A program made the position numbers and the translations under genes. Below are positions 1 through 47,237 of a DNA stretch of 47,237 nucleotides, one piece after another (position 1 is the stretch's first letter; each line of letters opens with the position of its first letter). The DNA is taken from the NCBI GenBank assembly GCA_015488215.1, contig WFOE01000042.1, forward strand, positions 1 to 47,237, read 5' to 3'. The DNA comes from Planctomycetales bacterium (GTDB taxonomy: Bacteria > Planctomycetota > Planctomycetia > Pirellulales > S012-138). A model generated the notes under the pieces. It did no database searches and had not been told where the DNA came from. It worked only from the letters and a program-made list of their open reading frames with translations.

Positions 1-240
1 CGCACCGAAGCAAGAGCAAACGCTGATTCTTGGAAACGGCGAGCCGCCGACTTCAGTCGGCGGAGGACGGACGGCCGTCGGCCACTGGGAGCTTCCGCTC
101 CCGTGCAAGAACAAACGCCGATACTCGCAATCGGCGAGCCGGGAGCTTTAGCTCCCGGAGAAAAACGAGCAAAACAAGCGGCTACGAACTACCTCCCCGG
201 ACTAAAGTCCGGGGCTCGCCTGTGCAAGAACAAATGTAAC
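1..240 (+). repeat. Intergenic hairpin-repeat block R1 (upstream of nuoF)
   Basis: Non-coding block that enters the window from the left, starting inside the right arm of a GGTGC-TTCC-GCACC hairpin. It holds core hairpins at 44-63 (CCGCCGACTTCAGTCGGCGG), 139-158 (CCGGGAGCTTTAGCTCCCGG) and 195-214 (CCCCGGACTAAAGTCCGGGG, reverse orientation), plus a short TTCC hairpin at 87-102 and a decayed GACGG..CCGTC hairpin at 66-79. The first two core copies are preceded by GGCGAGC; the third is followed by its complement, GCTCGCC. The linker from the 139 copy to the 195 copy is 36 nt, the same as in R2-R4. The ORFs at 30-239 and 103-426 are translations of this repeat and are not genes. Confidence 0.85.
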
Positions 241-3712: not shown

Positions 3713-4083
3713 CGGCTTGCGACTTGCGGCTTGCGACTTGCGCCGGGAGCTGCCGCTCCAAGAGGCTTGGAGGCGTGGGGGCTTGGAGGCTTGTGGGGAG
3801 GAGCTTCCGCTCCACTGTAAGAACAAACGCAACAATACAAAACGGCGAGCCGCCGACTTCAGTCGGCGGAGGGCGGCGCGGCCGCCAGCGACTAGGTGCT
3901 TCCGCACCAAAGCAAGAACCAACACAACACCACCAAACGGCGAGCCGGGAGCTTTAGCTCCCGGAGAAAAACGAGCAAAACAAGCGGCTACGAACAACCT
4001 CTCCGGACTAAAGTCCGGGGCTCGCCAGTGCCAGAACAAACGCGAGCCACACAAACGGCCAGCCGCGAGCGTTAACTGGCGGA
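3713..4083 (+). repeat. Hairpin-repeat block R3 (nuoG-nuoH)
   Basis: One of the fullest blocks. It holds CTTGCGN heptads (3713-3744), a decayed TTCC-type hairpin (3745-3759), a G-rich octad run of CTTGGAGG-like units (3762-3801), a TTCC hairpin GGAGCTTCCGCTCC (3800-3813), a core hairpin CCGCCGACTTCAGTCGGCGG (3850-3869), GGCGGC-GCG-GCCGCC (3872-3886), a TTCC hairpin GGTGCTTCCGCACC (3895-3908), a core hairpin CCGGGAGCTTTAGCTCCCGG (3945-3964), a reversed core hairpin (4001-4020, one G-T pair) and a decayed core (4063-4082). Spacings from TTCC hairpin to core are 36 nt twice, and core to reversed core is 36 nt. Confidence 0.88.
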
Positions 4084-5910: not shown

Positions 5911-6503
5911 CGGCTTGCGACTTGCGCCGTGCGCGAGGAGCTTCCGCAACAAAGGGCGTGGAGGCTTGGGGGCTTGGAGGCTTGGGGAGGAGCTTCCGCT
6001 CCGGAGCAAGAACCAACGTAACCGCAACAATACAAAACGGCGAGCCGGGGACTTCAGTCCCCGGAGGCGGCACGGCCGCCAGCGACTAGGTGCTTCCGCA
6101 CCAGAGCAAGAACAAACACAACACCACCAAACGGCGAGCCGGGAGCTTTGCTCCCGGAGAAAAACGAGCAGAACAAGCGGCGAGGAACAACCTTCCCGGA
6201 CTAAAGTCCGGGGCTCGCCACTGCCAGAACAAACGCAAGTACGCCAACGGTAAGTACACCTACACTAACGGCGACCCGCCGACTTCAGTCGGCGGAGAAA
6301 AACCAAGAGAAGACGCTAACTTGCCGAACCGTTCCGCAAGTTCACGCTTGCGGCTCGCCCAAGAACGAGAGCAGACGTTGACCTTCGCAAAAGCGGAAGG
6401 ACACCGAACGGGAAACCACTGCCACCTTCAGTAACAACGCAAACACAAAAACCGGCGTTTTTCCTGCCCTGCCCAAGACCCAAGACACAAGTCCCAAGAC
6501 CAC
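5911..6503 (+). repeat. Hairpin-repeat block R4 (nuoI-nuoJ)
   Basis: Fills the 596-base nuoI-nuoJ gap. It holds CTTGCGN heptads (5911-5933), a decayed TTCC hairpin (about 5937-5950), a G-rich octad run (5960-5990), a TTCC hairpin (5989-6002), a core hairpin with the distinct stem CCGGGGACTTCAGTCCCCGG (6045-6064), GGCGGC-ACG-GCCGCC (6066-6080), GGTGCTTCCGCACC (6089-6102), a core hairpin with a 3-nt loop (6139-6157), a reversed core (6194-6213) after 36 nt, a core CCGCCGACTTCAGTCGGCGG (6276-6295), CCGCAAGTTCACGCTTGCGG (6334-6353) after 38 nt, and CAAGACN heptads just before nuoJ. The part from about 6266 onward is paralogous to the nuoM leader. Confidence 0.88.
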
Positions 6504-9838: not shown

Positions 9839-10143
9839 GGCGGCACGGCCGCCAGCGACTAGGTGCTTCCGCACCAGTGCAAGAACAAACGTGATAACAA
9901 ACGGCACAACAGCGAGCCGCCGACTTCAGTCGGCGGAGAGAAACCAAAAGAAAATGCTGATTTACCGAACCGCTCCGCAAGCTCACGCTTGCGGCTCGCC
10001 CAAGAACGAGAGCAAACGTCGACGTTGGCAAAAACGGCAAAAACACCGAACCGGAAACAACCGCAACCTTCGGTAGCGACGCAAACACGAAAAGTGGTGT
10101 TTTTCCTGCCCTGCCCAAGACCCAAGACACAAGACCCAAGACC
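9839..10143 (+). repeat. Hairpin-repeat block R5 (nuoL-nuoM)
   Basis: Begins one base after the nuoL stop. It holds GGCGGC-ACG-GCCGCC (9839-9853), GGTGCTTCCGCACC (9862-9875), a core hairpin CCGCCGACTTCAGTCGGCGG (9917-9936), CCGCAAGCTCACGCTTGCGG (9975-9994) after 38 nt, and a CAAGACN heptad run that ends directly at the nuoM ATG. From about 9907 to 10143 it is a close relative of 6266-6504 upstream of nuoJ. Confidence 0.87.
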
Positions 10144-11859: not shown

Positions 11860-12056
11860 CCCGGACTTCCGTCCGGGGCTCGCCGAACTAGATTCGGCTT
11901 GCGACTTGTGGCGTGCGCCATGCGCGAGGAGCTTCCGCTCCGGAGCAAAACAAACGTAACAAACAACAAAACGGCGAGCCGCCGACTTTAGTCGGCGGAG
12001 AGAAACCAAAAGAAAACGCTGATTTACCGAACCGCTCCGCAAGCTCACGCTTACGG
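11860..12056 (+). repeat. Hairpin-repeat block R6 (nuoM-nuoN)
   Basis: Holds CCCGGAC-TTCC-GTCCGGG (11860-11877) right after the nuoM stop, a heptad run of CTTGCGN type (about 11895-11925), a TTCC hairpin (11928-11941), a core hairpin CCGCCGACTTTAGTCGGCGG (11979-11998) and CCGCAAGC-TCAC-GCTTACGG (12037-12056) after 38 nt. The section 11970-12060 is a third copy of the leader module found before nuoJ and nuoM; the similarity then stops and nuoN gets its own CGGAG ribosome binding site. Confidence 0.86.
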
Positions 12057-12114
12057 CTCGGCGGTGGAAGAGCAAACGCCAACCAAACCAGAACCGTAAA
12101 CGGAGACTTTGCCG

Positions 12115-16224: not shown

Positions 16225-16480
16225 CCCGAGCTAAAGCGGAAGCTCCTGGCGCACGCCGCAGGTCGCAAGCCACAAGCCGATTCTGCTTCGGCGATGCTAG
16301 TCTGGCGAGCCCCGGACTTCGGTCCGGGGAGGTGCGGAGAAAGCGGAAGAAAACGCTTGCTCGTTCTTTTCCTCCGCCGACTAACGTCGGCGGCTCGCCG
16401 ATTGCGAGAATCGGCGTTTTTTCTTGCATTGGTGCGGAAGCACCGGCGCAAGGCGCAGGTCGCAAGCCGCAAGCCGATTC
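16225..16480 (-). repeat. Hairpin-repeat block R7 (reverse orientation)
   Basis: Lies in the 426-base gap between UDP-glucose dehydrogenase and the large dehydrogenase and is inverted relative to R1-R6. It has a decayed TTCC hairpin near 16229-16246, reversed heptads (16250-16279), a core hairpin CCCCGGACTTCGGTCCGGGG (16310-16329, a TTCG loop), a reversed core CCGCCGACTAACGTCGGCGG (16374-16393), the GCAAGAA-type hairpin in reverse, GGTGCGGAAGCACC (16431-16444) and another reversed heptad run ending near 16478. The remaining 16480-16644 shows nothing recognised except AAAAGGGTG before the next ATG. The N-terminal 117 residues of the ORF-track entry at 16294 are translated repeat. Confidence 0.83.
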
Positions 16481-20199: not shown

Positions 20200-20590
20200 T
20201 CTCCAGCGAGCCGCCGACTTGGAAAGGCCTTGCGTCTTGGGTCTTGAGCAGGAGCTTCCGCGCCGGGGGGCGTGGAGGCTTGGGGGATGGGGTAGGAGCT
20301 CCCGTTCCAGAGCAAGAATAAGCGCTGATTCTTGCACTCGGCGAGCCGCCAGCTTTAGCTGGGAGAGGACGGCACGGCCGTCGGCAACTGGGAGCTTCCG
20401 CTCCAAGGCAAGAATAACCGCCAAAACATTAGCTCTCCCCGGACTGAAGTCCGGGGCTCGCCGTGAAGTCCGGGGCTCGCCAAACTACACCACAAACTAC
20501 GCTCTACCCCGACCATCTTGCTGCGCCGCGCCGTGGGCAATCGCCGCGAGTTCCTGGCAGCCCAAGACCCAAGACGCAAGCGCCAGAACC
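20200..20590 (+). repeat. Hairpin-repeat block R8 with broken half-elements
   Basis: Part of the 609-base gap after the dehydrogenase. It holds a core element cut after its left half (GCGAGCCGCCGACTT, 20206-20220), a CTTG heptad run (20228-20248), imperfect TTCC hairpins (20251-20264 and about 20295-20308), G-rich octads (about 20266-20295), a GCAAGAAT / ATTCTTGC hairpin (20312-20335, 8 bp), a decayed core CCAGC-TTTA-GCTGG (20349-20362), GACGGC-ACG-GCCGTC (20368-20382), a TTCC hairpin (20391-20404), a reversed core CCCCGGACTGAAGTCCGGGG (20437-20456) and a duplicated right half (20465-20481). A short CAAGACN run lies at 20568-20582. The remainder up to 20766 shows only the AGGGGGG ribosome binding site. 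Confidence 0.8.
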
Positions 20591-25927: not shown

Positions 25928-26110
25928 CGCGGAGCCGGCGCTCCGCGGGGCTTGCGGCTTGCGCCGTGCGCCTTGCGCGAAGAGCTTCCGCTCCAACGCA
26001 AGAACGAGCGACAATTCTTGCCAACGGCGAGCCGCCAGCTTTGCTTTAGCTGGCGGAGGAGAAACAACGAGCAAACGCTTCTACTTGCCTCCCCAGACTA
26101 AAGTCCGGGG
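25928..26110 (+). repeat. Hairpin-repeat block R9
   Basis: Lies between the convergent Gfo/Idh and ATP sulfurylase genes. It holds a perfect hairpin CGCGGAGC-CGGC-GCTCCGCG (25928-25947) 13 nt after the stop, heptads (25951-25979), a TTCC hairpin (25982-25993), GCAAGAA-N10-TTCTTGC (25998-26021), a core hairpin CCGCCAGC / GCTGGCGG with an enlarged 9-nt loop (26032-26056), and a reversed core with one mismatch (26091-26110). It contains the cleanest order heptad, TTCC hairpin, CAAGAA hairpin, core. Confidence 0.84.
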
Positions 26111-26153
26111 CTCGCGGGAACCCCGGCCAGCAATGGAGCCGCTGGCCCGCCGG

Positions 26154-27434: not shown

Positions 27435-27513
27435 CTTCGTTCTTTCCATTCCAGCAAAAAACGAGGCTTCCGTGGTTCTTCGGTCCGTTTATCCATCCGC
27501 GCCGCCGAGCGAG

Positions 27514-27850
27514 CCGCCGACTTCAGCTAGCGGAGGCGGCTCCAGCCGCAGCCACTGGGTGCTTCCGCACCGAGCGGGAATAGGCTTGCGGCTTGCGCCG
27601 TGCGCCTTGCGGAAGGTGCTTCCGCACCAGCGCAAGAATAATCGCCGACTCTTGCAATTCGGCGAGCCGCCGACTTTAGTCGGCGGAGGACGGCGAGCCG
27701 GGAGCTTTAGCTCCCGGAGGACGGCACGGCCGTGGGCGACTGGGTGCTTCCGCACCGATGCAGGAATAGGCGTTTTTTGCAACCGGCCCTCCCCGGACTG
27801 AAGTCCGGGGCTCGCCGCGAAGTCCGCGTCTTGCCGCGAAATCCGGGCTT
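27514..27850 (+). repeat. Hairpin-repeat block R10 (richest copy)
   Basis: Occupies most of the 508-base gap between sat and ilvC. It holds a diverged core (27514-27533), GCGGC-TCCA-GCCGC (27536-27549), GGTGCTTCCGCACC (27558-27571), CTTGCGN heptads (27581-27612), GGTGCTTCCGCACC (27615-27628), GCAAGA / TCTTGC (27632-27655), a core CCGCCGACTTTAGTCGGCGG (27667-27686), a core CCGGGAGCTTTAGCTCCCGG (27698-27717) only 11 nt later, GACGGC-ACG-GCCGTG (27720-27734), GGTGCTTCCGCACC (27743-27756), a reversed core CCCCGGACTGAAGTCCGGGG (27791-27810), then decaying right halves to about 27850. Both flanking genes are on the opposite strand. Bases 27435-27510 and 27851-27942 show nothing else recognised. Confidence 0.88.
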
Positions 27851-27942
27851 ACCGGACGCGGGCTACCGTTCGCCTGGCGGTGTACTCAATCGCTATACAT
27901 CCGCACTTCGGCGTGGGGGTTTTCCGTTTGGGGTAACGGGTA

Positions 27943-35644: not shown

Positions 35645-35971
35645 CTAGTCTTCGATCACGGCCAGGATGTCGTCTTCCCGCATCAACAGGTATTCCTCGT
35701 CGCCCACTTTGAACGTCTCGCCGGCGTAGGAGGAGAACAGCACCCGGTCGCCGGGCTTGACCTGCATTTCGCTCCGGGTGCCGTCATCCAGCAAGCGGCC
35801 GTTGCCCACGCTGATGACCTTGCCCCGAGCGGGCTTTTCTTTGGCCGTGTCGGGGAGCACGATTCCGCCGGGGGTTTTTTCTTCCATCTCCTCGCGTTGG
35901 ACCACTACCCGGTCCCCCAGCGGCTGGAGCTTGATCTTGGCTTGTTTCTTGCTCTTGGTCGCAGTGGCCAT
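35645..35971 (-). CDS. groES: Co-chaperonin GroES (Hsp10)
   Basis: Heptameric lid of the GroEL cage. It has 108 aa, about ten longer than usual because of a basic N-terminal extension (ATATKSKKQAKIK). The family motif begins LQPLGDRVVVQREE; the mobile loop is EKTPGGIVLPD and the end is LLMREDDILAVIED. GGAGGAG precedes the ATG by 6 nt. The track ORF's longer N-terminus lies in the upstream non-coding region and is rejected. The gene forms the standard groES-groEL pair. Confidence 0.97.
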   Translation of the reverse strand: MATATKSKKQAKIKLQPLGDRVVVQREEMEEKTPGGIVLPDTAKEKPARGKVISVGNGRLLDDGTRSEMQVKPGDRVLFSSYAGETFKVGDEEYLLMREDDILAVIED

Positions 35972-46826: not shown

Positions 46827-47237
46827 CCCCGGATTTCCGCTCGGGGAGGTCATTCGCAATCGCCTGTTTTGCTCGTTTTTCTCCGGGGACTGACGTCCCC
46901 GGCTCGCCGTTTCCAAGAATCAGCGTTTATTCTCGCCCGGAGCGGAAGCTCCCGCGCAAGGCGCACGCCGCACGGCGCAAGCCGACTTGCACCCGGCGAG
47001 CCCCGGACTTCAGTCCGGGGAGAGCCGGAGAAAAACGCTTGTTGTTGTTTCTCCGCCGACTCAAGTCGGCGGCTCGCTGGGTGCAAGAATCGGCGTTTGT
47101 TCTTGCACTGGAGCGGAAGCTCCCAGTGGCAGCGTCCCCGCCGTGCTCCGGGAGCTGACGCTCCCGGCTCGTTGTTGCTCCGCCGACTCAAGTCGGCGGC
47201 TCGCCGTTTCCAAGAATCAGCGCTTATTCTCGCCCCG
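46827..47237 (-). repeat. Hairpin-repeat block R12 (reverse orientation, runs off the window)
   Basis: Mostly inverted relative to R1-R6. It holds a diverged core (46827-46846), CCGGGGACTGACGTCCCCGG (46883-46902), GGAGCGGAAGCTCC (46939-46952), reversed heptads (46955-46990), a forward core CCCCGGACTTCAGTCCGGGG (47001-47020), CCGCCGACTCAAGTCGGCGG (47053-47072), a 9-bp hairpin GTGCAAGAA-N10-TTCTTGCAC (47081-47108), GGAGCGGAAGCTCC (47110-47123), CCGGGAGCTGACGCTCCCGG (47148-47167) and CCGCCGACTCAAGTCGGCGG (47180-47199). The element continues beyond the window. Bases 46662-46826 show nothing recognised. Confidence 0.87.

Follow-up and report, generated by a model that had tools for sequence, protein, structure and literature searches.

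Intergenic hairpin blocks of a planctomycete genome as REP/BIME-type elements probably moved in trans by a class-3-like TnpA(Y1) transposase

The intergenic hairpin blocks of a 47,237-nucleotide stretch of DNA from an uncultured planctomycete (contig C42 of genome G000; this whole stretch is referred to as the window) are, as far as sequence comparison can tell, very probably REP/BIME-type non-autonomous single-stranded DNA elements mobilised in trans by a class-3-like TnpA(Y1) transposase. Elements of the REP/BIME kind are already known; what appears new here is a CGAG foot, a composite unit and inverted pairs that are always unlike, and neither these three features nor the hairpin family as such was found described in the literature searched. 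The window's own assembly (4.29 Mb in 303 contigs, 96.5% complete) was compared with those of two sister species of the same genus, G001 and G002, the latter being JALSGI01 (Planctomycetota bacterium 354-166 bin 033), recognised by pattern matches at identical contigs and positions. Stretches of G000 totalling ~785 kb were used for sample counts and for training the in-house hexamer model that provided the gene calls (81.5% coding).

The block at 27514-27850 lies in a gap (27435-27942) flanked by two minus-strand genes, as called by the hexamer model, and is a genuine hairpin cluster, as the sequence-only reading had proposed, with four REP cores, three TTCC hairpins and one ACG hairpin. Its elements are:
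27510-27535, plus strand: REP core, degenerate, CGAG CCGCCGAC TTCA GCTAGCGG AG
27558-27571, plus strand: TTCC hairpin, GGTGC-TTCC-GCACC
27615-27628, plus strand: TTCC hairpin
27632-27655, plus strand: GCAAGA...TCTTGC spacer hairpin, separating TTCC hairpin from REP
27663-27688, plus strand: REP core, stem CCGCCGAC, loop TTTA
27694-27719, plus strand: REP core, stem CCGGGAGC, loop TTTA
27720-27734, plus strand: ACG hairpin, GACGGC-ACG-GCCGTG
27743-27756, plus strand: TTCC hairpin
27789-27814, minus strand: REP core, inverted, stem CCCCGGAC, loop TTCA
Folded as single-stranded DNA, positions 27505-27830 reached -98.5 kcal/mol (z = -5.7), and 0 of 100 shuffles folded as well. The homologous gap of G002 contains REP-ACG-TTCC-REP, with stems that differ from those of the window.

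Across the window, 29 cores and 16 TTCC hairpins were counted where 1.06 and 0.38, respectively, were expected from first-order Markov sequences of matched dinucleotide content, and all of them are intergenic, occupying 11 gaps between predicted genes. The ACG hairpins, eight with 1.7 expected, are individually weak and two of their matches fall in genes; this type was counted as part of the unit because it is positioned beside cores. The abundance announced by the sequence-only reading was thus confirmed, and its exact numbers (about 36 cores and 19 TTCC hairpins in twelve gaps) were not, degenerate copies and gene calls being the reason for the difference. The other blocks of the window are as follows:
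40-218: contig-start block, REP+, TTCC, REP+, REP-
1793-1927: TTCC, REP+, REP-; G001 gap empty
3800-4024: TTCC, REP+, ACG, TTCC, REP+, REP-; G001 gap empty
5989-6357: TTCC, REP+, ACG, TTCC, REP-, REP-; G001 gap empty
9839-9998: ACG, TTCC, REP+, REP-; other content in G002, short in G001
11928-12060: TTCC, REP+, REP-; G001 gap empty
16233-16444: TTCC-, REP+, REP-, TTCC-
20342-20460: REP+ (degenerate), ACG, TTCC, REP-
26089-26114, minus strand: lone REP with convergent genes either side
46881-47203: contig-end block, REP-, TTCC-, REP+, REP-, TTCC-, REP-, REP-

The core consists of GGCGAG, one arm of an 8-bp stem, a TTCA or TTTA loop (more rarely GTHA), the second arm and a terminal AG. Among 96 perfect 8-bp hairpins that were collected by their [GT]TNA loop and irrespective of their foot, 86 carried the CGAG foot and 90 the AG end. 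Stem pairing was counted directly on ungapped copies, instead of through a covariance model, and copies were picked solely by their loop and 5′ half. The 3′ arm, left free by this choice, formed Watson-Crick pairs in 97% of cells both in G000 (92 copies with 23 stems; 67% with arms shuffled) and in G002 (183 copies with 33 stems; 70% with arms shuffled), and in only 66% in G001 (13 copies). The core stem varies freely while pairing is kept, the foot and loop being near-constant. The G001 copies look decayed, as if the family had died there; poorly paired copies are found in this genome at loci such as L052, L055, L058 and L061.

Module spacings had been described as near constant, and the same values recur genome-wide. 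The distance from TTCC hairpin to core has its mode at 37 nt in G000 (20 of 37 cases in the sample) and is 36-37 nt in G002, that from core to TTCC hairpin has its mode at 25 nt in G000 (14 of 25 sampled cases), and core and reversed core are 36 nt apart in the first blocks of the window. Inverted core pairs with feet pointing outward and 30-46 nt between stems numbered 26 in the G000 sample and 76 in G002; the same stem was present on both sides in 0 of these 102 pairs, whereas ~10 would be expected if stems were paired at random inside each genome. Stretches of near-identical repeats ended, on the foot side, no more than 3 nt from the foot in 42 of 57 cases (G000) and 375 of 461 (G002). Since the repeated stretches stop there, the foot marks the boundary of the unit. 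About half of the 106 GGAGC/GGTGC-TTCC hairpins of the window and of L217-L276 in the G000 sample have no REP on the same strand within 60 nt; TTCC hairpins may form a separate or older element, and transposition leaves them unexplained.

The strict core pattern, restricted to TTYA loops, yielded 345 copies in G000, 697 in G002, 20 in G001 and none in 55 more distant relatives, and a reversed-pattern control matched nowhere in the three genomes of the genus. In the order-wide comparison, which took in 297 genomes and also allowed GTHA loops, 19 genomes had at least 10 copies. A wider pattern scan of contigs was dominated, among the matches listed, by one MAG, the remaining matches being single; the latter are probably due to chance, and none included a core by the stricter rule where checked. 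Cores sampled from G000 fell outside predicted genes in 126 of 133 cases. The proposal of a structured repeat family, spread genome-wide and mostly between genes in a fixed modular order, was therefore sound: the modules are neither confined to the window nor at the level of shuffled sequence, copies occurring throughout the genome and far above that level.

The gaps that hold cores are unevenly distributed with respect to gene orientation (26 of 218 tandem, 20 of 67 convergent and 2 of 96 divergent gaps; Fisher p = 1.2e-4). This strong preference for convergent and tandem over divergent gaps, the conservation of the stems and the roles of BIMEs elsewhere in protein binding and Rho-dependent termination (PMC2817692) would suit host RNA elements, whether terminators or 3′-end mRNA stabilisers, that are kept by selection and whose mobility is incidental or ancient. 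Such an origin is nonetheless improbable. Hairpins are absent from the orthologous gaps of G001, copy number varies 35-fold inside one genus, and hairpins flank Y1 genes (see below). The narrower identity of intrinsic terminators was rejected, a T run (TTTT within 10 nt downstream) following 0 of the 96 perfect copies.

The absence of cores from orthologous gaps in a sister species favours the reading of the blocks as mobile elements. The four window gaps marked as empty in G001, which carry two to three cores each, correspond to G001 gaps with 0 cores, three on one syntenic contig and one on another, and these G001 gaps retain 111-161 nt of unaligned sequence. In G002, several of the same gaps hold blocks with other contents. 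Block turnover is thus clear; gain and loss are not separable with three genomes, and the empty G001 gaps could be losses.

That no transposase is present, as the sequence-only reading had it, is correct for the window's own genome: neither a PF01797 gene nor, in a search with related Y1 proteins, any Y1 gene was found in the assemblies of G000 and G001. What the statement implied does not follow, a Y1 gene being framed by the repeats in sister species G002, which has several PF01797 genes and encodes four related Y1/HUH transposases beside hairpins:
C494:10677-11219: Y1 gene with cores on both sides
C494:12616-13227, minus strand: Y1 gene (203-aa protein) between two exact 120-nt copies of a composite unit
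C92: Y1 gene, then inverted core
C879: Y1 gene within a hairpin array of a second REP type, with GTTA/GTCA loops and mainly CCAG/AGAG feet
The 120-nt unit is composed of REP(CCGCCAGC), ACG hairpin, TTCC hairpin and REP(CCGCCGAC), starts exactly at GGCGAG and is the same composite unit as that at positions 3844-3966 of the window. Given this match, the composite module noticed in the window is, in the sister species, the one that encloses a transposase gene. A second REP type of G002, CCCCGCAC-GTTA-GTGCGGGG with CCAG/AGAG feet, forms an array to either side of a Y1 gene (L081 3940-4990), and its stem is also encountered a few times in G000.

Relatives detected with the Y1 profile are present in 103 of the 297 genomes of the order. 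Around the 30 best-scoring loci of this search, GAG-foot hairpins numbered 44 in 17.7 kb of flank as opposed to 10 in 67.8 kb further out; they were found on at least one side of 17 of these loci and on both sides of 13, and the 13 of the 30 without a recognised hairpin within 300 nt were mostly lower-scoring ones. A Y1 gene was present in 16 of the 19 genomes with at least 10 copies compared to 87 of the 278 others (p = 7e-6), and the co-occurrence of copies and Y1 gene persisted when the window's own genus was removed (p = 7e-7). At L281, L282, L291 and L302, which belong to other genera, the same or nearly the same inverted REP pair flanks the Y1 gene on both sides.

These associations bear on the idea of passive spread, according to which quasi-palindromes were copied by replication slippage, template switching and homologous recombination, and a Y1 gene landed by chance among the repeats. 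G000 lacks a transposase, the blocks have a recombined look, and templated correction could keep the arms perfect, all of which would fit. Passive spread is, however, very unlikely to account for Y1 genes of many genera being associated with hairpins, often on both sides, for the genome-wide co-occurrence of copies and Y1 gene, or for a fixed foot at which units end.

The Y1 proteins share invariant H99, H101, Y161 and Q165 residues, among them the catalytic HxH and tyrosine, and a WWT motif; the tyrosine motif reads Y---Q in the G002 proteins and Y----Q in many relatives from other genera. A predicted structure (mean pLDDT 82.7) was matched by Foldseek to the IS200/IS605 TnpA proteins of ISDra2 and IS608 and to the REP-bound RAYT 4er8, in agreement with a profile search of solved structures, and the NCBIfam model for REP-associated tyrosine transposases matched these proteins with 35-51 bits against a cut-off of 80. 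The nearest description is that of class 3 TnpA(Y1) proteins, which were described on the basis of few sequences as perhaps intermediate between the transposases of IS200 and those of REPs. In the published account (PMC6006769), Planctomycetes are among the main hosts of this class, its proteins display HxH, W-T and Y----Q motifs, its genes are flanked by several 'atypical' hairpins, of which Solibacter usitatus has ~600 copies, and the 5′ foot is CnGA. The present system resembles it in its planctomycete hosts, the HxH and W-T motifs, the several flanking hairpins and the hundreds of copies, and departs from it in the foot (GCGAG for the window, with NGAG as the wider form, instead of CnGA), in a G002 Y---Q motif one residue shorter and in the composite ACG/TTCC unit, which is absent from the text consulted (PMC6006769). 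The literal misfit of GCGAG with CnGA is why we use "class-3-like" rather than class 3.

Likeness to the REP/BIME elements of class 2 RAYTs (E. coli Y/Z, Haemophilus) extends to a hairpin with an adjoining foot, inverted pairs that combine two REP types, intergenic copies in the hundreds and a gene located between two different REPs (PMC2817692). The Haemophilus REP GTAGGGTGGGCTTcAGCCCACC shares its CTTYAG centre with the window core, whereas the class 2 foot is GT[AG]G (PMC2817692) and the foot here is CGAG, in 86 of the 96 foot-agnostic copies mentioned above. REPINs likewise have an inverted REP doublet of ~85 nt as their apparent unit, but with identical inverted ends, unlike any of the 102 pairs scored here (PMC3116915). 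Short palindromes tagged with GTAG or CGTC have been reported to reach Planctomycetes; ours are similarly short and tagged, with a tag that is neither of the two (PMC3733652). The general features of REP/BIME elements that were examined were all found, namely a 20-40 nt palindrome with an asymmetric conserved foot, upwards of 100 intergenic copies in a genome (345 and 697), a position downstream of genes, regular pairs in opposite orientation and, in G002 and order-wide rather than in the window's own assembly, a Y1 gene flanked by like hairpins. Setting the family apart from REP/BIME elements as composite and transposase-less, as had been suggested, is thus not supported, and the composite unit itself frames a Y1 gene in G002. 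That the elements belong to another type, such as MITEs of a DDE transposase, integron attC sites or CRISPR, is scarcely credible: they are short, palindromic, intergenic and in high copy number, as that would require, but they form unlike hairpin pairs with constant feet rather than one long terminal inverted repeat pair, the window has no Rfam family at gathering score, and the associated gene is of the Y1/HUH type.

Under mobilisation by a class-3-like enzyme, the Y1 transposase would bind single-stranded DNA, probably of the lagging strand, at the hairpin and its foot and cut at the foot, such that units bounded by REP feet would be moved in trans. Units would then build up in gaps where genes and promoters are spared, and nested insertion together with REP-REP recombination could generate the modular blocks. 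The G000 family looks, from its sequences, like an orphaned population, its transposase gene either lost or left out of the assembly; the gene may be merely missing, because metagenome assemblies break in these blocks. We tentatively consider a further possibility, which is somewhat doubtful, that this is a distinct REPtron lineage, in which a mobile composite cassette (REP, ACG, TTCC, REP; CGAG feet) has inverted partners that are necessarily unlike in stem, foot and loop are all that a single Y1 enzyme reads, and stems drift freely by compensatory change.

The blocks would provide a large population of likely substrates for a class 3-like Y1 enzyme, from hundreds to more than 1,000 copies in one species, with a decayed remnant in a second and an orphan set in a third. 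They offer a natural test of how foot and loop are recognised by the enzyme although stems vary, and of how REP populations arise and die out in bacteria other than Proteobacteria. That these genomes come as hundreds of contigs may also be due to the repeats: REP blocks probably cause the fragmentation, and those at contig ends could hide a transposase gene. Both ends of the window (40-218 and 46881-47203) fall inside REP blocks.

The CTTG microrepeats at 35924-35957 lie within a predicted minus-strand gene (35645-35971), in contrast to the CTTG islands found between genes. At L083 (5430-5455), long spurious ORFs cross REPs and yield the peptide SEPEASASG; where planctomycete annotations contain similar peptides, these may stem from the translation of REPs.
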